A stretch of DNA of 22,202 nt. Origin: a virus. This document shows, in pieces, positions 162 to 21,355 of the stretch (position 1 is the stretch's first letter; each line of letters begins with the position of its first letter). Both the position numbers and the translations under genes were made by a program. The notes under the pieces are model-generated. The model saw only the letters and a program-made list of their open reading frames with translations. It had not been told where the DNA came from and did not search any database. The DNA is taken from positions 1-22,202 of IMG/VR virus record IMGVR_UViG_3300013126_000276; one strand, given 5' to 3'.

Positions 162-1528
162 GCAAACAAGTCCTCGAGACTATTATTAGATAGTTTTTCA
201 TTAGGTATAAAATTCTTATCTTTAGACAGATAAGTGTGTTCATCAGTATAGATTATATTATACTTATGCTTGTTTGTCAATACACTTTTAATATCCTCGA
301 TAGCCAAACTTTTTCTTTTTAATGCAAATATAAAATCTAGATATTTTATTGTATCATATTCATTAATTTTGGCAGCATCTGATTTGGACATCGTTGAGGG
401 AACAAAACTATGGAGGAAGTCTACCCATTTTTGTTCAGTGCCACTATCCAAATGCTTTACATAATCTAAAGCGCCCTCATTGTACCAACTCTTTGGATCC
501 ATATTATCATAGGCTTTTTGAACAAAGTCTGCAGCTTTATCCATAGATACTCTACCATAAAATTTCTTATCAAAATTTGTTACCCATTCAGATTTATCAA
601 TTACAATGCTTGGCATATGTCCCATACATTCAAAGAATGTAAAAGGATAATTTTCTCTTAATGAAGGATTGAAATGAATTTTGGCAGATTTAATAAAATC
701 AACTTTCTCTTGCCCCACGATACCAGCTTTCATTTCATAGTCAATTATTCCTAATTCTAAAAGTCTTGCTTCAAATTTTTTCTTACCATTACTGTTAGTA
801 ATAATTTTGGCAGGTAATCCTGTCTTTTTAATTACTTCAAGAAAAGCCTCAGGATTTTTTCTTTCTTCCCATCTACCTATATACAATACACCTTTTCTTT
901 CTTTATAGTTAGGTGTGAGTAATTCTCTCTCAGACATTGGCATAGGCAATAAGGTAGCATGGTTACTACCATTAATTTTTAATTCATCTACATTTCTTTG
1001 AGATTGAGTACCAACAAAAGCATGTTCTACAGTCATGAGTCTGTTGAAAAACTCATTACAACTTTCAGTAAAAACACCTTTAAATTTTCTAGTATCTCTA
1101 AATACCATTGACTCTTCGTGAGTATAAAATACTACAGGAATATTTCTTCCAAGATCTAATGCCAACGCGGCTGGCATTGATTCCATTGAATTACAAATAA
1201 TCATATCATATAGATTTTTAGAAAAAGCATACATTAATGCTCGCCTAAAATTTATAATCTTTTCAAAATTTACTGAATCTGAGAAGGCAAAAGTGCCAGT
1301 ATGTTCTGAATAAGAGTTGGAAGTGATTGGATAAACTAATGATGCGCCAAAGCCTTCTACAATAGAACTGAAGCCCCCGGTGGGAGCTTTATCCATGATA
1401 ATATCTACCTTCCATCTTAGTCTATTCGCCATTTCAGTAAAACCTTTGGCAAATTGACCTATACCGCCATGAGGGACTAGATGTTGATCACTAATACAAA
1501 ATGCTATTCTTTTATTATATAGTTTCAT
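158..1528 (-). CDS. GT-B fold glycosyltransferase (GT4-like), 456 aa
   Basis: This is a sugar transferase of the two-domain GT-B type. The N-terminal domain carries a glycine-rich loop (PHGGIGQF, residues 19-26) typical of GT4 enzymes. The C-terminal domain has the IGRWEERKNP segment (217-226), where many GT4 proteins read G-R-x-x-x-x-K-x, and an E-x7-E pair at E292 and E300 (ENYPFTFFE), the usual nucleotide-sugar contact. Residues after about 375 form a charged C-terminal extension not needed for the fold. The start overlaps the folE stop as ATGA and the stop overlaps the next gene as ATGA, so it is translationally coupled on both sides. The acceptor is unknown: DNA base, virion protein or host envelope sugar are all possible. 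There is no membrane segment, so it should act in the cytoplasm. Confidence 0.85.
   Translation of the reverse strand: MKLYNKRIAFCISDQHLVPHGGIGQFAKGFTEMANRLRWKVDIIMDKAPTGGFSSIVEGFGASLVYPITSNSYSEHTGTFAFSDSVNFEKIINFRRALMYAFSKNLYDMIICNSMESMPAALALDLGRNIPVVFYTHEESMVFRDTRKFKGVFTESCNEFFNRLMTVEHAFVGTQSQRNVDELKINGSNHATLLPMPMSERELLTPNYKERKGVLYIGRWEERKNPEAFLEVIKKTGLPAKIITNSNGKKKFEARLLELGIIDYEMKAGIVGQEKVDFIKSAKIHFNPSLRENYPFTFFECMGHMPSIVIDKSEWVTNFDKKFYGRVSMDKAADFVQKAYDNMDPKSWYNEGALDYVKHLDSGTEQKWVDFLHSFVPSTMSKSDAAKINEYDTIKYLDFIFALKRKSLAIEDIKSVLTNKHKYNIIYTDEHTYLSKDKNFIPNEKLSNNSLEDLFA
252..280 (-). promoter_or_regulatory. Perfect sigma-70 promoter inside the glycosyltransferase gene
   Basis: On the minus strand TTGACA (280-275) is followed after exactly 17 bases by TATAAT (257-252). 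A second, overlapping TATAAT at 262-257 has only a 12-base spacer and is unlikely to be used. Both hexamers match the bacterial housekeeping consensus at every position. Transcription would start near base 245 and read into the gene beginning at 161. It lies within codons for the C-terminal extension of the glycosyltransferase, where sequence constraint is probably weak. Confidence 0.7.
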
Positions 1529-2277
1529 TTCATTTTATGAATAATATTAAAGAACTCTTGTTTTAAATGCGTATGTTCTCTGAATGCGCCTCGCATTACA
1601 GATGTTGTCATATCTGATTCATGTTCCTTTACGCCTCGATGAGTCATACAATGATGTTCAGCTTGTACTAATACAGCAACACCTTCAGCCTCAGTTTCTT
1701 GTTGAATAGCGTCAGCAATCTGTACTGTCATTTCTTCCTGAATCTGCGGGCGAGAAGCGATCCAATCCGCGATACGATTAAACTTACTAAGGCCGATAAC
1801 ATTCTTGCCCGGAAATACGCCAATATATGCTTTACCAACAATGTTTTGAAAATGATGGGCACATGTACTCCTTATAGTAATTGGGCCTGTTACATACAGT
1901 TCATCATATTCCGTTACATTAGGAAATGCTGTTACTTTAGGGGGATTAGCATATCGCCCTCTAAATGTTTCTTTAACAAACATCTTAGCAACACGCCTTG
2001 CTGTATCTTGAGTATTATGGTCGTTACTGGTATCTATAATCAATGAATGTAGAACTTGTTGAAACTTATCTGCCACTTCGTCAACTAAAAGATCAATTTC
2101 ATTTTCGTTATGAATATAAGGCGAAATATTATCGTTGGCGAAAAATCTTGCTTGCCCTTCCTTGATACGTTCGCGGATGACCTGACTCATAGGACGACCA
2201 AATACAGCACCTTCATAACCAGGATGGTAGGGGGCTGCTTCAATTAATGATTGATGATCTTCTTGTTTATTGCTCAT
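1525..2277 (-). CDS. folE: GTP cyclohydrolase I (FolE)
   Basis: FolE opens the imidazole ring of GTP to give 7,8-dihydroneopterin triphosphate, the first step of both folate and 7-deazaguanine (preQ0/queuosine) synthesis. The family signatures are intact: STCAHH (137-142), GLSKFNR (162-168), SRPQIQE (175-181) and HHCMTHRGV (208-216). By alignment to the bacterial enzyme the zinc ligands would be C139, H142 and C210, with H141 the catalytic histidine, so it should be active. At 250 aa it is longer than many bacterial FolE proteins because of about 55 extra N-terminal residues. It overlaps the 68-aa gene by 11 bases and the downstream glycosyltransferase by ATGA. With queE in the same operon the likely role is deazaguanine synthesis rather than folate. 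Confidence 0.95.
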   Translation of the reverse strand: MSNKQEDHQSLIEAAPYHPGYEGAVFGRPMSQVIRERIKEGQARFFANDNISPYIHNENEIDLLVDEVADKFQQVLHSLIIDTSNDHNTQDTARRVAKMFVKETFRGRYANPPKVTAFPNVTEYDELYVTGPITIRSTCAHHFQNIVGKAYIGVFPGKNVIGLSKFNRIADWIASRPQIQEEMTVQIADAIQQETEAEGVAVLVQAEHHCMTHRGVKEHESDMTTSVMRGAFREHTHLKQEFFNIIHKMK

Positions 2278-2473
2278 CTTGTAATAAAATCCTTGCCAAA
2301 TGTTGGAGTTTGTCTTTTTCTATGAAAAATTCATAACTACTAAGCGTAGTTGCCTTTCCATTCTCATCATATAATTCTTTAGTTAAATATACTGCTTTTA
2401 TATTATTGGGTAGTTTGAGATTTTTTATATCTATACTTAATCTATAATCTTGACGATCATCTAGATAATACAT
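2267..2473 (-). CDS. Unidentified small protein, 68 aa
   Basis: A short gene between a glycosyltransferase and folE. It overlaps the upstream gene by 17 bases and folE by 11 bases, and an AGGAAG Shine-Dalgarno stands about eight bases before its ATG, so it looks translated. The protein is soluble and charged, with alternating hydrophobic residues in the first half (beta strands likely) and a helix near the end (KDKLQHLARILL, residues 53-64). No cysteines and no catalytic motif are visible. I do not recognise the family. Its place inside the folE/queE/glycosyltransferase cassette makes an accessory role there possible, but nothing in the sequence shows it. Confidence 0.65.
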   Translation of the reverse strand: MYYLDDRQDYRLSIDIKNLKLPNNIKAVYLTKELYDENGKATTLSSYEFFIEKDKLQHLARILLQDEQ

Positions 2474-3407
2474 TTAATTTTCTTCCTATCTGAATAAAGG
2501 AAGATATAATACTAGAATTTGATTTTTCTAAACTATAAAAATTTCTAAGATAATTTAGATAATCCTCATGATCAATTGACCACTCGTCTAATTCAGAAAT
2601 TACATCATCCAATTTGTAAGCAAAATCGTTATAATCATAAAAGGGGACTGAAGTAAATAATGGATGCCTAAAAAATTCTTTACCACCGTCGCCATCAAAT
2701 CCCAAAACTTTACAACCACAAAATGCTGCTTCTAAGGGAGGCATCCCAAATCCTTCAGGTCCACCAAATGATAAAAATAATTTTGCCCTACGCATAATTT
2801 TGGCAGCAACATCTTTTGTAACATTATTCATCGGAACAATATTTAAATGCTTGTAGTTGCCCTTTATATATGTTTTGAAAAAGGCACTAAAATAACAATT
2901 CTTCCCCGAATAATACGTTATTATATTTTCTTTTGGTTCAGGATAAAATAGTTTATCGTCTATGCCTATTCTAAAACGAAATATTTTATTAGATGAGACT
3001 TCAAAAAATAATTTGACCCCATTGTAAGTATGATTAGAATTAACTATAACACCTGCCGCCTTATCATAAACTTCTACGTGTTCCTCATAACTTTTTTCAG
3101 AAAAGAATGCAGAATTCACACCTTGATTCAATACAACATAGTTAATATTATTAGGTATATAATGGTCATGAGCTACCCATATAAATTCTTCTGAAACCAC
3201 AAAAATATCATTAGGTTTTGCATCGTTAACATGTACTAATGGGAAATCTATAAAAGGTTCATTAAGAGCATTCGTAGTATCGAATGGTATTAAAAATTTT
3301 CCAACCTCAAATCCTGCATTTTTTAATGCATACATCTGTTGCTTTATAACTTGCAACCCACCTGATGACATTTTTAAAAGACCCATCAGATTAAAAACTA
3401 TACGCAT
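2457..3407 (-). CDS. GT-B fold glycosyltransferase (group 1), 316 aa
   Basis: A second GT-B type sugar transferase. The clearest mark is the C-terminal nucleotide-sugar motif EGFGMPPLEA (218-227), with the E-x7-E pair E218 and E226 followed by AAFCGCKVLGFDGDGG; this is the classic group 1 signature. The N-terminal domain begins with a beta strand and a glycine-containing loop (MRIVFNLMG and SSGGLQV, residues 1-20). It is shorter than a typical GT4 enzyme. The ATG directly abuts the queE stop (TAAATG), so it is expected to be coupled to queE translation. It is only distantly like the 456-aa enzyme downstream, so the two are unlikely to be a recent duplication. Substrate and acceptor cannot be told from sequence. 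Confidence 0.85.
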   Translation of the reverse strand: MRIVFNLMGLLKMSSGGLQVIKQQMYALKNAGFEVGKFLIPFDTTNALNEPFIDFPLVHVNDAKPNDIFVVSEEFIWVAHDHYIPNNINYVVLNQGVNSAFFSEKSYEEHVEVYDKAAGVIVNSNHTYNGVKLFFEVSSNKIFRFRIGIDDKLFYPEPKENIITYYSGKNCYFSAFFKTYIKGNYKHLNIVPMNNVTKDVAAKIMRRAKLFLSFGGPEGFGMPPLEAAFCGCKVLGFDGDGGKEFFRHPLFTSVPFYDYNDFAYKLDDVISELDEWSIDHEDYLNYLRNFYSLEKSNSSIISSFIQIGRKLNVLSR

Positions 3408-4253
3408 TTAGGTTCCCCATTCATTTTTGAATAATGGCACTTGAAGTCTATCACTATAGCGCCAACCTTTTTTCATTGCCATCAATGCAACATTTTTATT
3501 ATTCATGGCATATACCGATTCTACACCACCCACTGGCATTAAATACACTGGTCCAGTAAATCCTGCATTAGTATATTCTTTTACAGCTTGTTCAGCTTCA
3601 ACAACATCGTCTTCGGTAGCTACTACAAACTTTAGATATACAAAACCATGTTCCTGATACTGCATAATAATTTCTGGCTTAATTGCCTCGGACCATTTTT
3701 CACCACTAACACTCAATTTAGGACTGACGCTAAAAGTCAATCGATCCCAACCCTTGCGCCAATGTGTTTTAAGGTATTCAGAGAATTGAGGAGTTAGTGC
3801 TTGCGTTCCGTTTGTTTCGAACGTAAGTTCCTCCAAGTTGACCATATCGGGATGCGAGAGGAGAACAGGATACGCTCTTTGCCACCCAAGGAGTGGTTCA
3901 CCTCCTGTAATAACCAAATGCTCACTTGTCCACTTACCATGAGGTAGCATACGTAAAATGGCATCAACAATACCATCAACAGACAGCAAAGGGCTAAGAT
4001 GCTTAAACCTAACATCCCAGCTAGCGTAACTATCACACCCTGTAGTAACAAGAGGCAGAGATTTATAATCTTTGTACTGGTCCGCATGTTGTGCAATAAT
4101 TTTTCGTTCGTCACTCTTTTCTCCTTTGGGCATTCCAAAGCCATCGCAGGTAAAGTTGCAGCCAAAGGTTCTTAAGAAAACGCTGGGCACTCCCATGAAA
4201 CGACCTTCACCCTGGATCGAATAAAACAATTCAGATATTTTAATTTTAGACAT
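3408..4253 (-). CDS. queE: 7-carboxy-7-deazaguanine synthase-like radical SAM protein (QueE)
   Basis: QueE converts 6-carboxytetrahydropterin to 7-carboxy-7-deazaguanine using SAM and a [4Fe-4S] cluster. Family marks are the start SELFYSIQGEGRFMGVPSVF (7-26), FLRTFGCNFTC (26-36), TGGEPLL (116-122), ETNGT (146-150) and FSVSPKLS (174-181). The cluster motif is unusual. C32 and C36 have the normal C-x3-C spacing, but position 39 is Phe rather than Cys. The only other cysteine in the protein is C73, in CDSYASWD, which resembles the CDSAFTWD stretch that holds the third ligand in Bacillus-type QueE. I infer that C73 is the displaced third ligand, after an insert of 36 residues. A strong GAGGTG Shine-Dalgarno precedes the ATG. 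It is the first gene after an exact sigma-70 promoter. Confidence 0.9.
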   Translation of the reverse strand: MSKIKISELFYSIQGEGRFMGVPSVFLRTFGCNFTCDGFGMPKGEKSDERKIIAQHADQYKDYKSLPLVTTGCDSYASWDVRFKHLSPLLSVDGIVDAILRMLPHGKWTSEHLVITGGEPLLGWQRAYPVLLSHPDMVNLEELTFETNGTQALTPQFSEYLKTHWRKGWDRLTFSVSPKLSVSGEKWSEAIKPEIIMQYQEHGFVYLKFVVATEDDVVEAEQAVKEYTNAGFTGPVYLMPVGGVESVYAMNNKNVALMAMKKGWRYSDRLQVPLFKNEWGT

Positions 4254-4303: not shown

Positions 4304-4898
4304 CAGTAGTTTTTACATCTTCTTCAGCTAATTTGTTCTTTTTTGGTAATACAACTACCCGTTTATCAATATCAACCTGGTCTAATTGTTTTTTCAAATA
4401 GTCTATAAATTGATTTGAAAATTCTCCACTATCATGTTCTTGGGTTATAATTGAATCAATATCCATATTTTCAATAATTTTATATTTTGTTGCTTGCTGC
4501 TTCTTTTCTTTTTGTATTCGCCTAATGAAGGCAAAGTATACAATCTGTGTGTAATACGCAAAAGGATTAGATGATTTACTCGGATCAAATTTTGCAACAG
4601 CTGTTAGGCAATTTTCTATACCATCACTTATCATATCATCTTTAAAGGTGTAGTTAATAAAATTAGATTTGTATGATAAATGTGTGGCAATCTTAATAAA
4701 GCAATCGCCTATATAGTTAGGCACTTGGGGTTGTATCTCACCTCGTTCAGCTGCCGCATCAATTTGTTTTCTGTATTCTACAAGTGCCGCATAGAATTTT
4801 TTATTATCAATATAGTGAGAAGTTGTGGGCAAACTTTCAGTGGATAGTTCTGTTTCCGGAGACGCAGAACTTGTTTGAGTTTTCTTCTTGGCTTTCAT
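4290..4898 (-). CDS. 55: Late-transcription sigma factor gp55
   Basis: gp55 is the T4-family sigma factor that directs host RNA polymerase to late promoters (TATAAATA). The conserved core spans about residues 57-134: PNYIGDCFIKIATHL, then DDMISDGIENCL (87-98), AVAKFDPSKSSNPFAYYTQ (100-118) and the basic FIRRIQKEKKQ (124-134), which matches the region 2-like DNA and core-binding part. At 202 aa it is slightly longer than T4 gp55. The first 27 residues are Ser/Thr/Lys-rich and lack a good Shine-Dalgarno; the start overlaps the upstream gene by 62 bases, so the true start is less certain than the body. The C-terminus is charged and shows no obvious hydrophobic clamp-binding tail. Its presumed targets occur four times in this window. 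Confidence 0.95.
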   Translation of the reverse strand: MKAKKKTQTSSASPETELSTESLPTTSHYIDNKKFYAALVEYRKQIDAAAERGEIQPQVPNYIGDCFIKIATHLSYKSNFINYTFKDDMISDGIENCLTAVAKFDPSKSSNPFAYYTQIVYFAFIRRIQKEKKQQATKYKIIENMDIDSIITQEHDSGEFSNQFIDYLKKQLDQVDIDKRVVVLPKKNKLAEEDVKTTVDTE

Positions 4899-5289
4899 TT
4901 TGATTTTCCGTTTTAATTTTCTTTAAAAGTTGAAGTAGTGGATTATTTTCTAATTCTTCTTCAACCACAAGGTCATCTAGATAATTCTTTTTTCGCTGTT
5001 CTACAAACTCCTCATAATTTTTTCTAGCATTATCTGTTATCTCGGATATTGTTAATATATGGGATGTAGGTATTTTAAAATCTGTAGATTCGGAAAATCC
5101 TACCCAAGGCATTAACACATAAGATTCAACCATTAAAGAACCTCTCGGAATTCGCACCGATGCTATCACAACAGGATCAATTACTTTTATTATCTTTTTA
5201 CTAAAAACACTTTCTTCGTTTTCTTCAAGTTTACAAATAATATTATCGCCTGTAGATAATTTTAAAAGCCTATAGTTCAGGTCATTCAT
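4837..5289 (-). CDS. Small Sm-like fold protein between uvsW and gp55, 150 aa
   Basis: The first ~95 residues have the pattern I associate with a conserved Sm-like small protein of marine T4-like phages: a strand with KLSTGDNIICKLEE (10-23), a middle DPVVIA strand, then VLMPWVGFSESTDFKIP and a last strand before a helix NYEEFVEQRKKN. The tail from about residue 105 is acidic and low complexity, and its last 20 residues are simply the overlap with the start of gp55 in another frame. The start overlaps the uvsW stop as ATGA. The position between a recombination helicase and the late sigma factor suggests a role in replication or late transcription, for example RNA or polymerase binding, but that is inference only. 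Confidence 0.7.
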   Translation of the reverse strand: MNDLNYRLLKLSTGDNIICKLEENEESVFSKKIIKVIDPVVIASVRIPRGSLMVESYVLMPWVGFSESTDFKIPTSHILTISEITDNARKNYEEFVEQRKKNYLDDLVVEEELENNPLLQLLKKIKTENQNESQEENSNKFCVSGNRTIH

Positions 5290-6773
5290 TTTATTTCAAC
5301 CTTTACTAATTTGTAATCGAAGTGTTCGTCGTTATAAATTTTAATTCTTTCAATCATATGTAATAATGTATAATTTTTTTTAGATTTCCAAGTTAGATCG
5401 TCACCTATGTCATAAAGATTACAAGAATTTTTAGTTTCACTTGTTCTAAGTCCTCGCCCTATAGATTGTAGATTTCTGATTCTAGACTTGGACGGAGAAG
5501 CAAATATGATGTTATGTAAATTTTTTATATTTATCCCCGTACTAAAGGTGCCATACGAAGCAACAATAATAGCATTATTTTCTTTTTCAGTCAATTGCCG
5601 TATCTGCTCTCTTTGATCAGTATCGGTACCACCATATACAAAAAACACTTGTCTATCTTGGCACTTTGTCCATATCATATCATATAATTGTTTACCATGT
5701 TTTTCTACAAACTGAAACAATACTAAAGTATTTCCCTTTTGATCTATAGCTAAATTTCTAATAAACTTATTTCTGCCTGGATGTGAAACTAAAAAATCCA
5801 TTTCTTCTTGATACTGCAGTCCCTTAGTACTTTTTTTAATTTCATCCGGGTAATTTAAAATTATAGAAAATATTTTTAAATCAGCTAGAGTATTATCATT
5901 AATAAGTTTTTTGGTAGTTGTTACTTTATATACAGGACCAAACAATCCTTCTAAAACTAATTTATGAGTTTTGGTTCCATCTAAAGTACCAGTTGTTCCG
6001 ACTCTAAACGGTGTAGTCGTACATTTGTTAAGTATGCTGGTAAGTGATTTGGCCTTAAAGAGATGGGCTTCGTCGCCATAAATAACGTGAAATTCGGAGA
6101 AGAAACTCTTGGGAAGCTTGTAAATTGACTGCCAAGTACTAATAACAACGTTGTAAAGATTAGACTTCTCATGACCACCATATATCCTATGACAATTTTC
6201 GCTTGCGCGCCACTCATTTAATCCAGAGTAATCTTGGAAATCTGAGTACATTTGTTCCACAAGGCTTGTTGTAGGGACAAGTATAAGTTGTCGTCTCCCA
6301 TATTTTTCATGCCATCGTAATAAGCAGTAAATAATAAGAGATTTTCCCGAACCAGTTGGCGATAATAATAAGCGTCTTCCGTTGATAATTGCTTGATATA
6401 TTGCATCGATTTGATAATCTCGTATAGTTAAGAGTTGGCCTTTAGATGCAAGTTTTAAACTATTACAAAAATCTTTTACTTCATCCAATGTAACTTCATC
6501 ATAAGATTTTTTATAGTTTGAATCATCTATAACATATTCACGTTCTTTTGCAAAATGTTCGAGATATTCTTTTAGACCAATGTAAAGTTCTTTGGTGAAC
6601 ATAGAGAATAAACGAACTTTTCCATCCCACATGCGAGATTTATATAAAGGATGGAATTTTGCCCCAGGTACTTCAAATGAAAAATGATCGTTTAATTCTT
6701 GAGCAACAGATGGATCACTATCCACAATTAAATGTACTTCGTTTTTCTTTCTAATAGAAATATCAGACATCAC
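5286..6773 (-). CDS. uvsW: UvsW-type SF2 DNA helicase
   Basis: UvsW is the T4-family superfamily 2 helicase that remodels branched DNA and R-loops, moving replication from origin-driven to recombination-driven initiation. All main motifs are present: Walker A SPTGSGKS (138-145), DEAH (234-237), GTTGTL (259-264) and motif VI QSIGRGLR (436-443). The N-terminal ~110 residues correspond to the small UvsW-specific domain, with LYKSRMWDGKVRLF (43-56) as its typical sequence. At 495 aa it is close to T4 UvsW. The frame can start at GTG (6773) or at the next codon, ATG (6770). The ATG gives a TGATG junction with the uvsY stop and is the more usual start, so residue 1 may not exist. Confidence 0.95.
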   Translation of the reverse strand: MMSDISIRKKNEVHLIVDSDPSVAQELNDHFSFEVPGAKFHPLYKSRMWDGKVRLFSMFTKELYIGLKEYLEHFAKEREYVIDDSNYKKSYDEVTLDEVKDFCNSLKLASKGQLLTIRDYQIDAIYQAIINGRRLLLSPTGSGKSLIIYCLLRWHEKYGRRQLILVPTTSLVEQMYSDFQDYSGLNEWRASENCHRIYGGHEKSNLYNVVISTWQSIYKLPKSFFSEFHVIYGDEAHLFKAKSLTSILNKCTTTPFRVGTTGTLDGTKTHKLVLEGLFGPVYKVTTTKKLINDNTLADLKIFSIILNYPDEIKKSTKGLQYQEEMDFLVSHPGRNKFIRNLAIDQKGNTLVLFQFVEKHGKQLYDMIWTKCQDRQVFFVYGGTDTDQREQIRQLTEKENNAIIVASYGTFSTGINIKNLHNIIFASPSKSRIRNLQSIGRGLRTSETKNSCNLYDIGDDLTWKSKKNYTLLHMIERIKIYNDEHFDYKLVKVEIK

Positions 6774-7210
6774 ATTAAACCATTAGTAAATTTTGACCAT
6801 TCTATACTAGATTTAATATCCCATGTTCTAGAATTTATAGAACGAATTATTTGTTCAAGTTGATAAAGAACAGTTTTAAAATACTCAACTTTATCTTGTA
6901 ATTTTAATAGATCGGAGTCTCCCTGTAAGAATTCATCAATTTCATTTTTGAGGGGTTTGGCTCCTTGCCATTGTTGCCACCCCTCTTCTGTTAATTCATC
7001 ACGAGACATTTCACCTCTATAATAACGATATTTTTTTCTTCTAGTATTTAAATAATCTGATTCTGCTTTACGAAGATTTAATCTTGTTGATGAGAGTAGA
7101 TTAATATATTTAGCATGAAGAATAGGAACTCGAGCAGATTCTTTGCCTAGATTTGTTTCATCAATCTTACAGTCTTCTGCCCACATTTCCTGCAGGTCAG
7201 ATAGTTTCAT
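6770..7210 (-). CDS. uvsY: UvsY-like recombination mediator
   Basis: UvsY helps load the UvsX recombinase on single-stranded DNA covered by gp32. The protein has T4 UvsY features: start MKLSDLQEMWAED, then a conserved DETNLGKESARVPILHAKY region, a basic RRKKYRYYRGE segment (57-67), and a C-terminal half of KLQDKVEYFKTVLYQLEQIIRSINSR type, which pairs with an all-helical fold and ends in the INSRTWDIK region. At 146 aa it is close to the T4 protein (137 aa). Its ATG abuts the stop of the glycosyltransferase gene (TAAATG) and its stop overlaps uvsW, so the recombination pair is made together. It is the expected neighbour of uvsW in this phage group. Confidence 0.9.
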   Translation of the reverse strand: MKLSDLQEMWAEDCKIDETNLGKESARVPILHAKYINLLSSTRLNLRKAESDYLNTRRKKYRYYRGEMSRDELTEEGWQQWQGAKPLKNEIDEFLQGDSDLLKLQDKVEYFKTVLYQLEQIIRSINSRTWDIKSSIEWSKFTNGLM

Positions 7211-8098
7211 TTAATTGATTTGAATAATTTGAGCAGGATTACCTTGGAAATTATATGATCCAAAATGATTAAGTGAGATAGTAGGATCTAACCAGATATC
7301 TCCACCGATATCTTGCCAACGTCGACAGAATGTATAATCCTCTGACAAATATCTTTTATCCACCGGATCCAGCATAGTATCAAATAGTGCATAAAAATAA
7401 TCTTGTAAATCTGAACCAGTATTAAGATCATTATTATATTTGAGTTCTGGATATGCTGCTAGAAGTTTATCAATAGCTGTTCGTTTAATAAGCATAAAAC
7501 CTGTGCCAGCATCATGCAAACGAATAAGCCCATTTTCGATTGCTATTTGTTTTAAATCACGATTGACGAATTTGAAATTAATAGCATAATCACTACCGAG
7601 AGCAGCAATCTGTTGATCAGAAAGTTGTTTGCCTTGAACGCCCTCACGAATTCTTTGCCAATTTACACCCTTTTTAGGATAAGCACCAACTACTACTTCC
7701 TTATCATGAGCAATCAACTTTAGAATGTCTTCAGTTTGAAACTCAATATCTGCATCAATAAACAAAAGGTGAGAAAACCCAGATTGAATAAAATATGCTA
7801 AAAGAACATTACGTGCTCTTGTAACTAATGATTCATTGGCAATAGTGCCAAAAGCTAATGAAATACCATGTTGATTAAAAAATGTTAACGCTCGAATCAC
7901 CGAACGAAAATACGCTTCATGAATCAAACCACCATATGCAGGAGTACCTACGAAAATTTTATGTTTTCTTAGGTCATCTACCTTAATTTGTAATTGTTTA
8001 GTACCTGGTACTGAAGGTGTCTCGATAGGAGGAATGCCTTCTGTAGGTGCTTGCAAAGTTTGCGGTTTGATTTTTGATGGATTCAATTTAATTGCCAT
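7211..8098 (-). CDS. GT-A fold glycosyltransferase-like protein, 295 aa
   Basis: After a Pro-rich N-terminus (~35 residues) comes a GT-A type nucleotide-sugar transferase domain. It has the strand KIFVGTPAYGG (47-57), a helix with LVTRARNVL (91-99), and the metal/nucleotide-binding DxD in FIDADIEF (113-120; D115, D117). Later, GTGFMLIKR (198-206) and SEDYTFCRRW (252-261, acceptor-side acidic pair) precede LDPTISLNHFGSYNFQGN. Proteins like this are common in large phages and are annotated as family A glycosyltransferases. It sits between a tail-tube-like gene and uvsY, which is an odd place for a sugar enzyme; the gap to the upstream gene is 14 bases. It might act on virion proteins made from the same late transcript. 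The acceptor is not known. Confidence 0.85.
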   Translation of the reverse strand: MAIKLNPSKIKPQTLQAPTEGIPPIETPSVPGTKQLQIKVDDLRKHKIFVGTPAYGGLIHEAYFRSVIRALTFFNQHGISLAFGTIANESLVTRARNVLLAYFIQSGFSHLLFIDADIEFQTEDILKLIAHDKEVVVGAYPKKGVNWQRIREGVQGKQLSDQQIAALGSDYAINFKFVNRDLKQIAIENGLIRLHDAGTGFMLIKRTAIDKLLAAYPELKYNNDLNTGSDLQDYFYALFDTMLDPVDKRYLSEDYTFCRRWQDIGGDIWLDPTISLNHFGSYNFQGNPAQIIQIN

Positions 8099-8112: not shown

Positions 8113-8700
8113 TTAAATAATTTCTATATCAAATACTTTATATCTGAAGGATGCGATTGCTGTAAAATACTGGACATCTTGAGAAACAACATCAAAATCT
8201 AAAGCTTCTATAGATATTGGGAACAACTCTTTGAATATTATATTTACTTTAGGATTGTTTGTCGAGTCTAAAATAGTTAATGTGCCATCTGAGTAAGCCA
8301 AAACAGCTAGATTGTTTTGTTTATCACGTATAAAAGGAAAAGCGGTTGGTCTGTTTTGCACAAAAGATTCAAATTGGGTGTAATTGTTTGGAAACCCCAA
8401 AGCATTTATCCAATTGTAAATTTCCAAATAATTAGACATGTCCTCAGAAATCAAAAATCTTATTGTGAAATCACCATAAAGAATTTTATCTCCAATTACT
8501 GGTATATCTGTAAAAGGAGTAGGTTGGACTGCATTACCTATGTTTAATGAAGGTAAATTTGCCGATTGACAAGTAAATGAAGTATTTGGCAAATCTTTTA
8601 TTTGAAATCTAAAAGCATTAGGGCGCAAAAAATCATAAGTAGTAGGTCTACTAGATTCATAACTATTTACTAATACGTTTGAATTTGCGATATAAGCCAT
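8113..8700 (-). CDS. Tail-tube-fold protein, gp19 paralogue
   Basis: This 195-aa protein is the same length as gp19 and follows it along much of its length: both have an R-P-(N)-F start of the first strand, a strand with LP and P(F/V)(F/T) about 45-60 residues in, a GD(K/R)-(I/V) motif, an SD/ED element before a helix with (M/N)-W-(M/I)N, and a final KELFP/QDVFP followed by a beta hairpin ending in (A/G)-(S/T)F-(R/Q)-Y-K/Q. I read this as a second tube-type protein, such as a tube initiator, terminator or baseplate-hub ring rather than the main tube. It has its own late promoter and a strong GGGAGGTG ribosome site, so it is probably made in quantity. It occupies the place where T4-like marine phages often have a gene named gp3, which may be the same protein under another name. 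Confidence 0.75.
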   Translation of the reverse strand: MAYIANSNVLVNSYESSRPTTYDFLRPNAFRFQIKDLPNTSFTCQSANLPSLNIGNAVQPTPFTDIPVIGDKILYGDFTIRFLISEDMSNYLEIYNWINALGFPNNYTQFESFVQNRPTAFPFIRDKQNNLAVLAYSDGTLTILDSTNNPKVNIIFKELFPISIEALDFDVVSQDVQYFTAIASFRYKVFDIEII

Positions 8701-8715: not shown

Positions 8716-8723
8716 TATTTATA
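8716..8723 (-). promoter_or_regulatory. Late promoter (TATAAATA) of the tube paralogue
   Basis: The minus strand has an exact T4 late box TATAAATA at 8723-8716. With normal spacing the transcript begins near 8710, so the leader would be only about ten bases, essentially the GAGGTGATAA ribosome site before the ATG at 8700. It lies directly downstream of the gp23 terminator. Confidence 0.85.
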
Positions 8724-8728
8724 AAGAC

Positions 8729-8754
8729 AAAAAAAGGGATCCGAAGATCCCTTT
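8729..8754 (-). terminator. Intrinsic terminator after gp23
   Basis: Read on the minus strand the RNA forms a perfect 9-bp stem, AAAGGGAUC with GAUCCCUUU, closed by a UUCG tetraloop on a C-G pair, followed by a run of U (seven Us, three of them in the stem). It starts 20 bases after the gp23 stop. This is the only clear intrinsic terminator in the window. Confidence 0.93.
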
Positions 8755-8774: not shown

Positions 8775-10076
8775 TTACATCAAATTAATAACCTTAGTAC
8801 GACGATAGTACTGGTTACGATCTGCTGTAAATGTAGCACCATCTAAATCAGATACGCTTGATGTAGATGTTACATATGGATTGGCAATTAGACCATAACG
8901 TGTCTTAAAGCCAATCTTTGGTTGGAAGCTGTTAGGATCAACAGCACGAACCATTTGCAGAGGAACATATGGGCAATAGAATAAACCAGCATCATATGGG
9001 CTAGCACCTTTGTACCCTACCATATAGAACTGATTTGCATCATTTAGATTTGCTGAATATGGATCGATATAAACACGATAGCGACCATTTAAAACACCAG
9101 CAAATGTATTGCCTGTATCGTCAACTGTTAGATTTGTACTTAATGCTGGGGCGTAATCTAAAACACCAGACATAGCTAAAGCACTTGCAACGTCTGCAGA
9201 GCAAACGATGAAGTTACCTTTACCACGACGAGTATCTTGAGCAATAGCATTAGCATCGCGCTCTATATTAAATAGAAGACCTTTGAAACGCTCTACAGAC
9301 CAACGACCGTTGGAATCAACGTCTAAATCAAAAGTACCAGCAGTAGCTGTAGCAGGAGAACCTGGCTTAGCAACTTTGTAAATTAAACGTACGATTTCAC
9401 GATTAATTTCAAACATAAATTCTTGGCTAAGAATGTTGCTTAGTTCTGATTCTGCATCCAATCCATGGATTGCTTTCAAATCTTGAGCAAGTTCTACTGT
9501 ATATTCAGCTTTAAGCGCACGGCTCTTAGCAGTTACAGAAGTCTTGTCAATAGCGAAAGACATTTCATTAAATGCTTGTCCGCCTGATGTACCCATAGCT
9601 TCAGCAGTTGCTGTTGTTACACCAGCGCCTGTTGTATATGTACCATCAACTGGATTAGAACCTGCATGTCCGCTTGCGTTGCCAGAGAATGAAGTATTAG
9701 CTTCATTGTATAATGCTTCTACACGAGTAGAAGTATTAGCACGCTCTGTACCATAGATTGATCTCATAGCAAAGATCAATCCTGTTGGACCTGTCATTGG
9801 CTGAACACCGCAAATATCATATGCCATCAAATTAGGCATAGAACGACGTACTAAGCCAATAAGAATTGGGTCATACTTTTCAATACCGTTTGTTGCGCTA
9901 ATGTTATTTGTTGGTGCTGCTTCAAAAAGAGCGCTACGCTCTTCACGTAATGCTCTCTCCTGATTTTCTAAAAGAACTGCAGTAACAGCTCTTTTATAGG
10001 AATCCTTGATTTCTGGAAGATCAGGATGAGCAATGATTGCTCCCCATTTTTCTTGTAATTGTTCTGCTAAAAACAT
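8775..10076 (-). CDS. 23: Major capsid protein gp23
   Basis: gp23 forms the icosahedral prohead shell (HK97 fold) and is trimmed by gp21. The N-terminal helical prosequence ends at ALFEAAPTN (49-57), where LFE then Ala fits the T4 protease rule, so cleavage between E52 and A53 is likely. Recognisable family segments are EKYDPILIGLVRRSMPNLMA (66-85), CGVQPMTGPTGLIFAMRSIY (89-108) and a C-terminal GFKTRYGLIANPY. At 433 aa it is shorter than T4 gp23 (521 aa), as in other marine T4-like phages. An AAGGAG Shine-Dalgarno precedes the ATG. It has no exact late box in the short gap from gp22 and is probably read from the gp22 late promoter. Codon use looks like its neighbours. No gp24 vertex gene follows. 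Confidence 0.97.
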   Translation of the reverse strand: MFLAEQLQEKWGAIIAHPDLPEIKDSYKRAVTAVLLENQERALREERSALFEAAPTNNISATNGIEKYDPILIGLVRRSMPNLMAYDICGVQPMTGPTGLIFAMRSIYGTERANTSTRVEALYNEANTSFSGNASGHAGSNPVDGTYTTGAGVTTATAEAMGTSGGQAFNEMSFAIDKTSVTAKSRALKAEYTVELAQDLKAIHGLDAESELSNILSQEFMFEINREIVRLIYKVAKPGSPATATAGTFDLDVDSNGRWSVERFKGLLFNIERDANAIAQDTRRGKGNFIVCSADVASALAMSGVLDYAPALSTNLTVDDTGNTFAGVLNGRYRVYIDPYSANLNDANQFYMVGYKGASPYDAGLFYCPYVPLQMVRAVDPNSFQPKIGFKTRYGLIANPYVTSTSSVSDLDGATFTADRNQYYRRTKVINLM

Positions 10077-11271: not shown

Positions 11272-11279
11272 TATTTATA
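11272..11279 (-). promoter_or_regulatory. Late promoter (TATAAATA) of gp22-gp23
   Basis: The minus strand reads TATAAATA at 11279-11272 in the 38-base gap between gp21 and gp22. The gp22 ATG is 30 bases downstream, with AGGAGA in between. Scaffold and major capsid protein share this promoter, and the transcript should end at the terminator after gp23. Confidence 0.85.
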
Positions 11280-11935: not shown

Positions 11936-12337
11936 TTAGTCGTACTTACTATAAAGAATTTGTTGATTTGGTAATTGATAGCCTTGTGTCTTAGATAAAT
12001 TTAAAATAGCAGTGCCACCAGAACCCGATAAAGTAACAGTAATATTGGCATTATTATTTTGTGTATCTACAAAACCCCACTGCTGATTAAATGACCAATT
12101 ATCATTACTATAAATTACTATAGTATTTGTAGAAGCTCTGGTTAATGTAAGAGAATCTGATCCGCCTAAGCTCCAAAGTAATCCGGCAACATTGACATTG
12201 GCATTTGCATAACCTAAAAAGGTTTCATCAGCAGTTTTTAGATCTGCATTCAAATCTATATTAGCAGTACCTGCCCCCACTAATTTAACTATAGCAGTTT
12301 GCGGTGTCTTTTTTAAAACTGTTTTAACAACTGGCAT
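11936..12337 (-). CDS. Beta-rich small virion protein, possible head decoration
   Basis: A 133-aa protein between the gp68-like gene and gp21. It is rich in Asn, Thr, Ala and Val, has no cysteine, and shows alternating hydrophobic strands over its entire length, for example QTAIVKLVG (13-21), SLTLTRAS and ANITVTLSG, with a Trp-containing centre (LLWSLGG; NWSFNQQWGF). That fits an all-beta sandwich. I recall similar proteins annotated only as structural proteins in marine T4-like phages. The position in the head operon suggests a head-surface (decoration) or connector protein. It is not homologous to anything I can name in T4, where gp67 and gp68 occupy this interval. One base separates it from gp21. 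Confidence 0.7.
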   Translation of the reverse strand: MPVVKTVLKKTPQTAIVKLVGAGTANIDLNADLKTADETFLGYANANVNVAGLLWSLGGSDSLTLTRASTNTIVIYSNDNWSFNQQWGFVDTQNNNANITVTLSGSGGTAILNLSKTQGYQLPNQQILYSKYD

Positions 12338-14213: not shown

Positions 14214-14801
14214 TTATTGTACTGGGGCAAAATTAGCAGCAGTGTTAACTATCTGAGCGCCAGGATTAGGCGCAACAGTAAACGTCTGATACTGAAATGT
14301 GGCTCCAAAAGATGAAATTTGATCATTCAACGAAAAGTCTAACTGAACATCACCCACGTCTGTAGGAAACACGTCCTGCAAATTGTATACTTTCAATTCA
14401 TTACCATTACGATCCAATTGTGTGATTTGCATATTACACATATATTCAGAAGGACGTAACTTACCTACTTTTGTAAGTAAATTATCCATACCATTCATCC
14501 AAGATTCTAAAGCTGACCTGATAGTAAAATCAGAATCATTTAGAATCAATAATTGAATAGGTGCAAAAACTCTATCCCCTGCGTATTTTATTTCTCTACC
14601 TCTGTAGAATACAGGGGCAATACCTATAACTTGACCCGGTAAAGATGCCTGAGTTACTAAAAAAGGCACCTTTTGCCCTGCAAGAGAAGCGTTAGGAACG
14701 AACCCTGCAGGAAAAGTCATTGTTACTGCAAACTGATTAGGTCTAGCACCACCATTAGTAAGTGCTGACTTAAACTGATTTACGTTAAATCTAATTGCCA
14801 T
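14214..14801 (-). CDS. 19: Tail tube protein gp19
   Basis: gp19 builds the inner tube of the contractile tail. The 195-aa sequence has the gp19 pattern: RPNQFAVTMTFP start strand (21-32), QASLPGQVIG (52-61), VFYRGREIKYAGDRVF (64-79), ILNDSDFTIRSALESWMN (86-103) and the end hairpin VFPTDVGDVQLDFS. It is longer than T4 gp19 (163 aa), mostly through a C-terminal Asn/Ala/Pro-rich tail after about residue 178. It follows gp18 with a ten-base gap and shares that transcript. A related protein of the same length is encoded at 8113-8700. Confidence 0.97.
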   Translation of the reverse strand: MAIRFNVNQFKSALTNGGARPNQFAVTMTFPAGFVPNASLAGQKVPFLVTQASLPGQVIGIAPVFYRGREIKYAGDRVFAPIQLLILNDSDFTIRSALESWMNGMDNLLTKVGKLRPSEYMCNMQITQLDRNGNELKVYNLQDVFPTDVGDVQLDFSLNDQISSFGATFQYQTFTVAPNPGAQIVNTAANFAPVQ

Positions 14802-16931: not shown

Positions 16932-18641
16932 TTAGACACTTTCCATCCATTTTGTTTTAAGTTTTTGCATTTCTTTTTCAGGATCAGAATTGAACCATAT
17001 ATCATCCCCAATTCTTTCTGGAGGAGATTCTTTTAATTCCCCAATATCTAATATCCCAAATGGGGTCAAATCTTCTTCTATGTACTTAAACTGTTCTTCA
17101 TATAGAATAGTTCTAAGATTAATATTAGTCAATTCTTTGAAAAATGAATTATTAGCAGCCCAACCTAGTAAAACTAATGTCATTACCAAATCATCATGAT
17201 AACCTGCATCTGCAGCAAATGAATTTCTTACTTCTATAAAAGTAGATATTTCGTGGATTATATCTGGATCATGAATTAATAATTTATTAGTTTCAACTAA
17301 ACTCTTAAAATTTGTACAACCTAAAGATTTGACTTGCTTTGTAGTTCTAACCCCTAGAGTAGCACCAGATTGAAATCCTGCTGAGATAAATTGCCCAGAT
17401 TTTGAACTATGTCCCACAAAGAAAACGTTTTCATATTCTAATTCAGAATACAATGCGTCTGCAACTTGTTGTCCATTATCATTTATTTCTACTAAACAAA
17501 ATGCGTTATTATAATCTTTAGCAACCTTATGAATAATATTCGGATACATTAAAGGGCTTATTCGATTACTTCTATACTTCGCAACAACTTTATATGGAAA
17601 TGAGGTTATATCTGTTACAGTAAAGGCGCAATGATCTCCACCGACTCCCCTAGACGTATCTGCAACTAAAACATAAGTATGATTTTCGCCTTCAATTTTG
17701 CCATCATCATTTCTAGTTGCTCTTATTGGTTCTTCTAATATATCTAAATTGTCTTTAGAAAACACAAACCTTTTTGCTGACATTCTAGAAATCGTATCTG
17801 GATTAATTAAAGTATTTGAAGAACCTAAAAATCTACATAATACTTCTTGATTAAATTTTAGATCGCCAAGTAAGGCACGCTGTTGTTCTGCCCATTCCTC
17901 GGTTCTACCTGGAATTTTACTGTAATGTATATAGTGATGAATAAATCCATTTAAACCCTGTTCAGCCTCATTCCAGAATTTCCAAAAATGATTATAACCT
18001 AAAGGAGTGGATGTCAATAATATTTTTGTAGTTTCACCTGAAGAAATTGTAGGATAAACTGAAGTAAAAAATTCATCAGCCAAAGTATTAGGAATAATAG
18101 CAGCTTCGTCAATGTATAACCAATTTACAGATTTACCGCGAATACCAGAACTAGAAGTAGCTGATGTAAAAATTCTGCATCCATTTTCTAATTCTATGTC
18201 ACCCTTATTCCAAGTTTTCAATCCTTGTTGCATCCACAAAGGTAAAAATTCATACATTAACTGATATCTATAAAGCACTTCTCTTGCAGCAGACGATTTA
18301 TTAGCTAGTATTGCTACAGTTTTATTTTCTTGAAATAAAGTATACCATAAAATACAAGCAGCTGCTGTAATAGTTTTACCTTGTTGCCTACCCTCCATTA
18401 ATATAACTTTACGATTGTTAAGTATAATATCTACTTTTTCTTTTTGACAATCGTACAATTTAAATGGCACTAGGCCTTTATCTAAAGAAACTATAAAACA
18501 ATAGTTTTCAATAAAATAAATAGGATCCTTAGCACACTTTAAGATTTCCTTAACATTATCCTCAGTGTACTGAATTGGAAATCCAATTTGTTTTAAATTT
18601 TGATTTCCATTATAAGAATTTTTTACACTACTTGTTGTCAT
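16932..18641 (-). CDS. 17: Terminase large subunit gp17
   Basis: gp17 is the packaging motor: an N-terminal ATPase pumps DNA into the prohead and a C-terminal RNase H-fold nuclease cuts the concatemer. The Walker A motif is GRQQGKT (84-90), Walker B is WLYIDEA (174-180, catalytic E179) and the coupling motif is TSTP (210-213). In the nuclease domain D328 (VADTSRG), E385 (LVEIND) and D483 (YHDDLVMT) match the T4 metal-binding acidic residues. 569 aa compares with 610 in T4, so all parts are present. It overlaps gp16 by 14 bases. Late promoters downstream separate it from gp18; no terminator lies between. Confidence 0.98.
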   Translation of the reverse strand: MTTSSVKNSYNGNQNLKQIGFPIQYTEDNVKEILKCAKDPIYFIENYCFIVSLDKGLVPFKLYDCQKEKVDIILNNRKVILMEGRQQGKTITAAACILWYTLFQENKTVAILANKSSAAREVLYRYQLMYEFLPLWMQQGLKTWNKGDIELENGCRIFTSATSSSGIRGKSVNWLYIDEAAIIPNTLADEFFTSVYPTISSGETTKILLTSTPLGYNHFWKFWNEAEQGLNGFIHHYIHYSKIPGRTEEWAEQQRALLGDLKFNQEVLCRFLGSSNTLINPDTISRMSAKRFVFSKDNLDILEEPIRATRNDDGKIEGENHTYVLVADTSRGVGGDHCAFTVTDITSFPYKVVAKYRSNRISPLMYPNIIHKVAKDYNNAFCLVEINDNGQQVADALYSELEYENVFFVGHSSKSGQFISAGFQSGATLGVRTTKQVKSLGCTNFKSLVETNKLLIHDPDIIHEISTFIEVRNSFAADAGYHDDLVMTLVLLGWAANNSFFKELTNINLRTILYEEQFKYIEEDLTPFGILDIGELKESPPERIGDDIWFNSDPEKEMQKLKTKWMESV

Positions 18642-19050
18642 TCTGATTCTTTAATAACTTCAATAATTCTGTAGTAGAACCGGCAAATACAATATTATTT
18701 TGAGTACCAATACTATTAGTTTTAATTGCTGGATCTTCTATATCTAATTCTTTTACTTTCTTCTGTAAATCTAATAAATCTTTAGTCATATCAGACATAG
18801 TTTTCATTAATTGTCCTGCAACTTCAAATGATCTTGGATGCTCAGAATTTCTAGCCAAGTTAATCATGTCATCTAATGTAGAATCACCTTTCATAATTAA
18901 ACTACGTAATGTCCTGCGAGCTAATTGATAATCATCCTCAGTATCTTCTCTTTTATTAGAAGATACTACGGGCAAATAATCTTTACTTATATTTGATTCG
19001 GGTAAAGGTGTCAAATCAAAAATTTTATTCAATTCATCAATATTTTTCAT
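18628..19050 (-). CDS. 16: Terminase small subunit gp16
   Basis: gp16 oligomerises, binds DNA and regulates gp17. The central part has the conserved pattern of T4-like gp16: DDYQLARRTLRSLI (38-51), then MINLARNSEHPRSFEVAGQL (62-81) and a coiled-coil helix to about residue 106 (MSDMTKDLLDLQKKVKELD). The termini are disordered and polar. At 140 aa it is a little shorter than T4 gp16 (164 aa). Start and gp15 stop share a base (TAATG), and the end overlaps gp17 by 14 bases, so gp16 and gp17 should be translationally coupled. Confidence 0.93.
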   Translation of the reverse strand: MKNIDELNKIFDLTPLPESNISKDYLPVVSSNKREDTEDDYQLARRTLRSLIMKGDSTLDDMINLARNSEHPRSFEVAGQLMKTMSDMTKDLLDLQKKVKELDIEDPAIKTNSIGTQNNIVFAGSTTELLKLLKNQNDNK

Positions 19051-19802
19051 TAGAAATCTTCAAATGTTTCAATAAAATCGATACTATCCCCAGGTTTGGC
19101 TGTATTTGGTTCCACCTGAACTGTGTATTGTTGTTTTCTATCAGTTAAATCTGAGTTATCAAAAGTGTTGGCTATTACCTTTCTAATAATACCCTGTCTA
19201 TTAATAGGACCATAAAAATTAAGTTTCATTATAAATGATAGTGTCCAAATAATAGAACGTCTAGAAGCAAAGTCCCCTTCATAATTATCTTCAAATGATA
19301 AATTTTCTAATAGAATAGGTAAATCATTTTTTATATTTAAGGCGGGAATTGCCTTTAAAGTTAAATTATAATCTGGATTAAAATAGGGTAAAATCTGTTC
19401 AACAATTTGTAAACCATCATCTTGATTCTTAGAATAGATATACAAATTTATATTAATGTTATAAGGCGAAGGAGCATATTGCATATTCAATGTGGTGGTA
19501 CTAGTATTCAAACCTCTGTTTTGTTGGATAGGAGATATTTTTCTTGCAGGGTCGTACTGAATACCAGACATTTCAAATGACATTCTAGGCAAAATAATTT
19601 GAAAGCTTTTTTGCTCTACATCCGGCTGCTGTTCAATTCTGGCTAAAAATTTCTGTTTAGGAGCATATGCTAATGGCACTCTTAAGGATTCTATCACCTC
19701 TCCCGCAGAATTTTTTCTGTCTATAGTAATTTGATTAAACATATTTCCAAAAGCAATTATAGCTTTTCGAATTGTGCCCCAATAAAATTTCTCATCTAAC
19801 AT
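19050..19802 (-). CDS. 15: Tail completion and sheath stabiliser gp15
   Basis: gp15 caps the tail end that joins the head. Marks include the start MLDEKFYWGTIRKAIIAFGN (1-20), RVPLAYAPKQKFLARI (41-56), ILPRMSFEMSGIQYDPARKI (69-88) and YNININLYIYSKNQDDGLQIVEQILPYF with YNLTL after it. 250 aa compares with 272 in T4. The start shares a base with the gp14 stop (TAATG) and the stop shares a base with gp16. It is one of the most conserved neck-tail genes in this group. Confidence 0.95.
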   Translation of the reverse strand: MLDEKFYWGTIRKAIIAFGNMFNQITIDRKNSAGEVIESLRVPLAYAPKQKFLARIEQQPDVEQKSFQIILPRMSFEMSGIQYDPARKISPIQQNRGLNTSTTTLNMQYAPSPYNININLYIYSKNQDDGLQIVEQILPYFNPDYNLTLKAIPALNIKNDLPILLENLSFEDNYEGDFASRRSIIWTLSFIMKLNFYGPINRQGIIRKVIANTFDNSDLTDRKQQYTVQVEPNTAKPGDSIDFIETFEDF

Positions 19803-20548
19803 TATTTGAATACCTCACCGAATGGATTTCTTTCTGTGAAATCTAAAATATCATCAATATTGGTATCAAAATCATCATTTCTAATATTAGATTCTTCTTC
19901 TAAATCATTATATGTTTCTAAAATTAGACTTGTAGCTGAAAATTCTTCCAATAAAAAACTATCTCCATTTTCCTGAAGTAATTCATAATTGGTAATATCC
20001 ATATCTTTTTCATCAGCTATATCATCTATTTCCTCTATACCGGTATCTATATTTTCACTAGAATACTGATACAATTCACACTGTAATGTAAATACAAATA
20101 TTTTACCTATTTGGAAAAATGGTGTTTCGTTTTCAACTTTTCTTATTTCAAAAAAAGATTTAGTTAAAGGAAAATATAGAAGATCGCCTTCAGCGGGTCT
20201 GGTATCTAATATTTGATTTCCTGTTCTACCAACAGTTTCAAGCCATCTTTTTCTTGAAACTATAAAATTAGCAGTGTCTCTAATTTCCAAACCAAACTTT
20301 GTCATTAGTTCGCCGTCACCTTCAAACCCACCCACATTCTGTAAATACATTTCCAAAGGATAAGCATGTTCAAAAGAATTTAAAGGATCCTCACCTAAAA
20401 TTCTATCCTTATTATAAGCCTTGCGAGGAATGTAATAGATATCAAAACCATAAATCTTCAGACACTCTATAATTAAATCCTCATAGAGATTCTGCTCCGA
20501 TCTACGTCCCATCGGTATACCGGATTGAAAATAATGATTTGTAGGCAT
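19802..20548 (-). CDS. 14: Neck protein gp14
   Basis: gp14 joins gp13 to complete the head neck. The N-terminus (NHYFQSGIPMGRRSEQNLYE, 4-23), YGFDIYYIPRKAYNKDRILGED and the FGLEIRDTANFIVSRKRW segment are characteristic. The last ~100 residues are acidic and less conserved, ending in FTERNPFGEVFK. Length 248 aa is close to T4 gp14 (256 aa). It is set apart from gp13 by 63 bases, the largest gap in this block other than the gp18 leader, and has no strong Shine-Dalgarno before the ATG (GAAAAGAACAA). Confidence 0.95.
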   Translation of the reverse strand: MPTNHYFQSGIPMGRRSEQNLYEDLIIECLKIYGFDIYYIPRKAYNKDRILGEDPLNSFEHAYPLEMYLQNVGGFEGDGELMTKFGLEIRDTANFIVSRKRWLETVGRTGNQILDTRPAEGDLLYFPLTKSFFEIRKVENETPFFQIGKIFVFTLQCELYQYSSENIDTGIEEIDDIADEKDMDITNYELLQENGDSFLLEEFSATSLILETYNDLEEESNIRNDDFDTNIDDILDFTERNPFGEVFK

Positions 20549-20611: not shown

Positions 20612-21355
20612 TTAGCCTGTAAAAAAGTCCACAGGTAATTCGAATCGAAGTTGTATTTCATCTTCAATAACCTTTATTTCATCAATAGCTTCTTGATATA
20701 TTTTATCACCGTTTAATACTACACCACCGGGTAATTGTACTCCATCAAACTTCTTGATGTTTTCACCCCATTGCCTTTTAAATAACGCAGTGCAATATCG
20801 TTTTAAAAACATATCATTATAAACATCGGTATACGTATCCGGATCAAGTATTCTATAGCATTCGATAATAATATAATCGCCGGCTACAGCATCAGCTGCC
20901 CAATCCATATCTAAATACAATTTATTCATATGCCTATTAAAACGAATAGGTTTAATACCTACTAGTAATTGATTAATTAATTCTATATGTTGTTTTACTT
21001 GGGCATAGTAAATTAAATCTGTAGACATTAAACTATAAAGATCATTTATTAGTATTTGGTATCTAATATCAAAAATATTAATACCAGAACTTCTATTACT
21101 AAAAGGCATAACTCTATTTACGCCCACTATATTATCATTTAATTCTACTGATTGGCTACTAATATTGTTAGCGGTTAACTGGTGCTTTAAGTACACCATT
21201 TCAACTGCATCATAATGATACTCTCTATAGAATTGAAAAGCATCATCTATTCTGTCCTCAATTTGATCTTCATCAATATTGATTTCAATTACAGGTTGCC
21301 CTAATCTACGTAAACAATAATCTTTGAGTGCCTCTCTTGATGTTACAGATGCCAT
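20612..21355 (-). CDS. 13: Neck protein gp13
   Basis: gp13 binds the portal after packaging and seals the head. Recognisable parts are the start with SREALKDYCLRRLGQPVIEI (5-24), the acidic DEDQIEDRIDDAFQFYREYHYDA region (28-50), PIRFNRHMNKLYLDMDW (136-152) and the C-terminal DPDTYTDVYNDMFLKRY and ALFKRQWGENIKKF segments. 247 aa is shorter than T4 gp13 (309 aa) but typical of marine relatives. Start and upstream stop share a base (TAATG). A late-promoter box lies 158 bases upstream, inside the preceding gene. Confidence 0.95.
   Translation of the reverse strand: MASVTSREALKDYCLRRLGQPVIEINIDEDQIEDRIDDAFQFYREYHYDAVEMVYLKHQLTANNISSQSVELNDNIVGVNRVMPFSNRSSGINIFDIRYQILINDLYSLMSTDLIYYAQVKQHIELINQLLVGIKPIRFNRHMNKLYLDMDWAADAVAGDYIIIECYRILDPDTYTDVYNDMFLKRYCTALFKRQWGENIKKFDGVQLPGGVVLNGDKIYQEAIDEIKVIEDEIQLRFELPVDFFTG

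Follow-up and report, generated by a model that had tools for sequence, protein, structure and literature searches.

The gene behind gp23 in an uncultured T4-type phage is most likely gene 3, encoding the tail-tube terminator

Identification and neighbourhood of the gene

The gene directly behind the major capsid gene in the virus record IMGVR_UViG_3300013126_000276 (IMG/VR) is most likely gene 3, which encodes the tail-tube terminator of a contractile phage of the T4 type (cyanophage/pelagiphage-like). We give this reading a probability of about 0.94. The whole stretch of 22,202 nucleotides was analyzed and is called the window in the following. The gene (positions 8113-8700, minus strand) starts with ATG, encodes 195 amino acids and was assigned as that of the tube-cap ring protein by profile searches, tblastn, tree and predicted fold. 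An earlier note on this DNA had described the product as a divergent relative of the tail-tube protein gp19, equal to it in length and encoded about 6 kb away behind gp23. The reading frame is as described: gp19 (14214-14801, minus strand), a paralogue, also has 195 amino acids, the two genes lie about 6.1 kb apart, and gp23 (8775-10076, minus strand; PF07068, E 1.3e-142) is located directly upstream.

The gene belongs to a T4-type structural module on the minus strand. This module comprises gp13 (neck/head-tail adaptor; 20612-21355; phrog_211, 1.1e-44), gp14 (neck protein; 19802-20548; PF11649, 4e-31), gp15 (tail terminator/sheath stabiliser; 19050-19802; PF16724, 1.6e-78), the small and large terminase, gp18, gp19, gp20, gp21, gp22, gp23 and gp3. 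For the large terminase (16932-18641), gp20 and gp22 the names follow from the order of genes as in P-SSM2 and not from a family search. Past gp3 the module continues with a glycosyltransferase-like gene (7211-8098, minus strand; phrog_1574, function unknown), uvsY (6770-7210, minus strand; PF11056, 2.1e-31), uvsW, a small gene labelled 'methylamine' and the gene of the late sigma factor gp55.

The order gp23, gp3, uvsY, uvsW is that of marine gp3 genes. In P-SSM2 it reads gp23-oxygenase-gp3-uvsY-...-uvsW and in Mosig gp23-gp3-uvsY-oxygenase-uvsW, both followed by the 'methylamine' gene and gp55 as in the window. The insertions differ: the window carries the glycosyltransferase-like gene between gp3 and uvsY, whereas the oxygenase precedes gp3 in P-SSM2 and follows uvsY in Mosig. 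T4 itself has a different arrangement, with gene 3 between genes 1 and 2. Among 309 gp3 loci, for which some contigs were entered more than once, the nearest of the sought window genes before gp3 was gp23 in 271; in the other 38 none was found in the fetched upstream stretch. The next sought gene after gp3 was the phrog_1574 glycosyltransferase-like gene in 135 loci and uvsY in 165, with none in 9.

Orthology to T4 gp3

The single sequence fails to separate T4 gp3 from T4 gp19, so a family profile was needed for the link to T4. In pairwise comparison the window protein scored 66 with T4 gp3, no better than the 69 obtained with T4 gp19, and a phmmer search against solved structures listed gp19 (0.095), with gp3 absent from the listing. 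The scores with the marine relatives were 365 for P-SSM2 gp3 and 358 for Mosig gp3 versus 64 and 79 for the gp19 proteins of these phages.

For the family profile two alignments were used. The first (A2) was built from 57 gp3 representatives, of which L185, L198 and L210 were omitted and to which L003 and L004 were added; locus L061, with an early stop in the extracted frame (50 amino acids), was left out of the alignments. One row of A2 (L330) was 100% identical to T4 gp3, and for this reason the hit of A2 on the structure of T4 gp3 is circular and was not used. Removal of L330 gave A4, which consists of the window sequence and 55 loci; 7 of its 56 rows (L333-L342) had been found with T4 gp3 as seed.

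A search of solved structures with the A4 profile, free of T4 gp3, yielded six matches in all. T4 gp3 ranked first with an E value of 2.9e-15, followed at a distance by T4 gp19 (5.7e-4) and gp54 (4.2e-3). Direct alignment of the gp3 family to T4 gp3 by hhalign gave 5.2e-14 across 135 columns. A profile of the window's own clade only (A1, 20 sequences) also ranked T4 gp3 first, weakly (0.04), with gp19 at 0.9. By profile the window family is thus closest to T4 gp3, ahead of gp19, gp54 and gp15. The window protein and T4 gp3 are about 19% identical. Of the comparisons proposed in the earlier note, the profile search and the Foldseek search described below ranked T4 gp3 first, and no chain named gp48 occurred among the six profile matches.

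These results bear on the possibility that the protein initiates the tube at the baseplate, as do gp48 and gp54. Such a role would fit the presence of gp54 among the profile matches and of a baseplate subunit, 9f4a_BQ of phage KP1 variant Lilla1, among the fold matches of the model described below (VIA-align Z 12.0). However, gp3 is by far the better profile match, the chains named gp54 are 320-321 amino acids long, and the gene order is that of marine gp3. On the profile ranking we rejected an initiator of this kind, which we regard as very improbable. The earlier suggestion that the protein belongs to the class of special tail rings was borne out in the form of the terminator, not of the initiator.

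Assignment to gp3 was further supported by tblastn. The window protein matched 490 phage records, 483 of them over at least 80% of the query and all with less than 60% identity. Among the best 60 of these 490 records, 42 bore one of the annotations gp3, tail completion and head-proximal tip (ACG-2014b isolates made up 21 of the 42), 5 were called tail tube and 7 hypothetical or predicted protein, and 6 had no annotation. The orthologues PSSM2_137 of P-SSM2 (41.4% identity over 87% of the query) and Mosig_00035 (35.1% over 98%) lie in similar neighbourhoods. By these annotations and by gene order, the window gene is indeed the one that the earlier note supposed to be labelled gp3 in marine relatives. 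NCBIfam, searched up to E 1, listed no family for either the window protein or T4 gp3. A Pfam match of gp3 to HTH_47 (E 0.013, below the cut-off) was taken as chance.

Kinship with gp19

As far as sequence comparison can tell, the kinship of gp3 and gp19 is weak by single sequence and firm by profile. The Smith-Waterman score of the two window proteins was 65, compared with a maximum of 60 over 1000 shuffles. Against the Pfam gp19 family (PF06841) the window gp3 reached E 0.021 and the window gp19 7.3e-5, and both values stay below the cut-off. In contrast, hhalign of the gp3 family with the gp19 family gave 1.9e-12 across 154 columns, and the 'tail tube' family phrog_45 was matched by gp3 (1.2e-35) as well as by gp19 (1.3e-54). 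A profile search with the window gp19 returned tail tube proteins as the best solved matches, T4 gp19 being second. The earlier note was therefore right about a divergent relative of gp19. The equal length, which it had stressed, is a coincidence within this lineage: gp3 and gp19 have 195 and 195 amino acids in the window, 176 and 163 in T4, 177 and 195 in P-SSM2, and 208 and 175 in Mosig.

The same note had suggested that the label gp3 may hide a tube-fold protein. As a novelty this did not hold, and the label does not really conceal a kinship that can already be seen in the databases. T4 gp3 scores 48 bits with the Pfam gp19 family at a gathering cut-off of 28.2, phrog_45 is common to T4 gp3 and gp19, solved structures (PDB 9mkb, 9mof, 9x3p) contain T4 gp3 under the name 'tube terminator protein', and the gp3 gene of Mosig, like the 5 records mentioned above, is already annotated as a (putative) tail tube protein. 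The misleading wording in cyanophage records is 'sheath stabilizer'. In the passages at hand of PMC8718954, PMC3004832, PMC2984593, PMC3037559 and PMC2988020 the kinship of gp3 and gp19 was not found expressed in words.

A maximum-likelihood tree was calculated from 24 gp3 loci (23 of the 57 representatives and L004), 15 of the 21 listed gp19 loci and 8 named or window rows. It separated all 28 gp3 rows from all 19 gp19 rows with a support of 100/99. The window gp3 grouped with gp3 of T4, P-SSM2 and Mosig, apart from gp19, and the window gp19 grouped with the three corresponding gp19 proteins. The program flagged the T4 branches as long and gave a further warning that long branches come together at the gp3/gp19 split; these branches were kept. 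A constraint that joined gp3 and gp19 of the window lineage was rejected with p-AU 4.8e-58, the constrained group having been chosen after the tree was known.

The tree speaks against a second major tube protein, that is, a duplicate of gp19 made in many copies for a tube of two proteins. The tube fold, the length equal to that of gp19 and the promoter motif in front of the gene would all suit such a duplicate. However, the split is deep and the gp3 proteins of T4, P-SSM2 and Mosig fall on the side of the window gp3, a lineage-specific duplication is rejected by the constrained comparison, and the promoter motif precedes a stretch of several genes. A duplicate of gp19 is accordingly very unlikely and was rejected on the tree and the constraint. 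Window gp19 and T4 gp19 share the tube fold and a detectable common ancestry with the window gp3, but they form a separate deep branch. For this group of phages the window gp3 is thus an unremarkable gene, and the special-ring relative is a long-known cap. The gp3/gp19 pairs of aquatic phages form a set in which the features that distinguish a growing ring from a capping one can be traced.

Predicted fold

The structure of gp3 was predicted with AlphaFold2 from alignment A2, so that the row identical to T4 gp3 was included (1 of 57). The confidence of the model was middling (pLDDT 70.7, pTM 0.59). Foldseek returned T4 gp3 first (9mkb_AC, E 2.2e-9) and T4 gp19 next (5w5f_A, 1.1e-8). The superposition on T4 gp3 was loose (TM 0.52/0.57, rmsd 10.6), and the Foldseek superpositions on T4 gp3 and T4 gp19 had TM 0.50-0.59 with rmsd >10 for both. 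In VIA-align the Z scores for gp3 (12.1), gp19 (11.7) and Hcp (12.7) were tied, with injection-system tube proteins close by. A control model of the window gp19 (pLDDT 66.6) scored highest with 9f4a_BQ (15.3), with chain 5iv5_BG of the T4 baseplate complex (14.1) and with proteins of the tail tube (14.0 and 13.6); its score with gp3 was 12.6.

The predicted structure of gp3 clearly has a tube fold like that of gp19. Because the VIA-align scores for gp3, gp19 and Hcp are tied, the fold cannot tell a terminator from a tube protein, and the terminator role is derived from orthology, not from the fold. A fold unlike gp19, which the earlier note had set against its proposal, was not seen. The other case it raised, a match to a 'gpU/gp3 terminator fold', mixes two things: the tube-fold models agree with the solved structure of T4 gp3. 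The name gpU did not appear among the 50 rows each of Foldseek and VIA-align, and absence from such a list excludes no fold.

It is gp15 that is the gpU-like terminator. A terminator or sheath stabiliser of the gpU/gp15 type behind gp23 could be suspected from 'tail completion + sheath stabilizer', an old label of cyanophage entries. However, gp15 is a separate gene of the window (PF16724, see above), PF16724 gave no match in the window gp3 up to E 1, hhalign of the gp3 family to the single window gp15 protein gave a probability of 0.2%, and the model matches tube proteins. On PF16724 and hhalign a protein of the gp15 type was rejected; we consider it extremely unlikely.

Proposed role in tail assembly

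According to two reviews (PMC8718954 and PMC3004832), T4 gp3 forms a hexameric ring at which the gp19 tube ends; gp15 next attaches both to gp3 and to the final ring of the sheath, and the tail joins the gp13/gp14 neck. In the window gp13, gp14, gp15, gp18 and gp19 are all present, and the expected partner gp15 is thus encoded by the same phage as gp3.

For this uncultured phage we infer the hexamer, the position of the ring and the order of assembly from T4 by orthology. Six copies of the gp19-fold protein gp3 would assemble into a ring and dock on the terminal gp19 ring once the tube is as long as the tape-measure protein dictates. The gp3 ring would stop growth of the tube and would then receive the gp15 ring, which in turn would lock the sheath and present the tail to the gp13/gp14 neck.

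Late promoter and hairpin upstream of gp3

A T4-type late promoter element, TATAAATA, is found at 8716-8723 (minus strand), 15 bases upstream of the ATG of gp3. Between gp23 and gp3 an intrinsic terminator-like hairpin of 9 pairs followed by a T run is located at 8733-8754 (minus strand). The number of TATAAATA copies in the window is at chance level (5 found, 5.5 expected). The position before gp3 was kept in all 79 loci with enough upstream sequence (80 fetched, many of them near-identical). The 120 bases before gp3 in T4, P-SSM2 and Mosig contained no exact copy of the element; ATAAATA, which is shorter, is present upstream of gp3 in P-SSM2 and Mosig and absent in T4. For cyanophage S-PM2, NATAAATA has been reported as the late promoter (PMC2984593).

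Upstream regions were counted as distinct 80-base sequences and scored for the 7-mer ATAAATA (in a column headed NATAAATA). The motif preceded gp3 in 81 of 115 distinct sequences, compared with 6.2 after shuffling. By set these were 47/47 in the window's clade, 14/18 among Mosig-seeded, 5/7 among T4-seeded and 15/43 among P-SSM2-seeded sequences; because of the last value the gp3 promoter is not universal. Other genes carrying the motif were gp22 (23/23), gp18 (4/4) and gp23 (20/77). It was rare before gp55 (1/30), gp21 (1/35), gp19 (1/29) and gp20 (2/32), and for the genes downstream of gp3 the counts were 0/41 for the glycosyltransferase, 0/149 for uvsY and 2/51 for uvsW. The terminator-like hairpin was detected before gp3 in 70 of the 115 distinct sequences and in 0.0 of the shuffles. 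In the window TATAAATA also stands directly before gp22 (11272-11279, minus strand). At gathering scores Rfam gave no matches in the window.

Given the frequent hairpin behind gp23 and the scarcity or absence of the motif before the following genes, transcription of the capsid gene probably often ends after gp23, with the next late unit starting at gp3. The glycosyltransferase, uvsY and uvsW would then be read from the gp3 promoter as one transcript, and early promoters may exist for these genes too. From the motif counts, the promoter would act as a restart of transcription after gp23 that serves the genes behind gp3 too, not the ring alone. The late promoter claimed in the earlier note is thus there and conserved in position, but a dedication to gp3 found no support: it heads a stretch of several genes, and similar sites precede gp22 and gp18. 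A strong promoter had seemed odd for a ring used once per tail. With the gene identified, and with the promoter standing behind a hairpin and ahead of several genes, this oddity largely disappears.

Enlarged stretch after the main helix

Between the columns of W97 and L144 the window gp3 has 48 residues, and all 56 non-T4 rows of A2 have 38-64. The matching stretch is shorter in T4 gp3 (28 residues) and in gp19 (28-29 residues in 22/22 rows). One might tentatively see in this enlargement in marine and freshwater T4-type gp3 a terminator-specific surface which blocks the next tube ring or grips gp15 or the sheath, and hence a capping contact absent in T4. From the alignment lengths we regard this as possible, though rather unlikely.

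Other genes of the window

An open reading frame of 133 amino acids near gp21 (11936-12337, minus strand) had no match in Pfam (E up to 0.01) or PHROG (E up to 0.001). The protein of 110 amino acids adjoining gp13 (21355-21687, minus strand) matched phrog_1084 (unknown) and phrog_3304 (L-shaped tail fiber protein assembly). The small protein encoded at 4837-5289 (minus strand) matched phrog_471, 'methylamine utilization', and weakly DUF6561 and Sm_like; in P-SSM2 and Mosig, too, uvsW and gp55 are separated by a gene with this label. The label looks doubtful. At one end of the window a GTP cyclohydrolase I (1525-2277, minus strand; PF01227, 4.4e-50) and a QueE-like radical SAM protein (3408-4253, minus strand; phrog_2076, 2.2e-50) are encoded near two glycosyltransferase-like genes with weak Pfam matches (158-1528 and 2457-3407). 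The cyclohydrolase and the QueE-like protein possibly serve 7-deazaguanine synthesis for the modification of DNA or tRNA.
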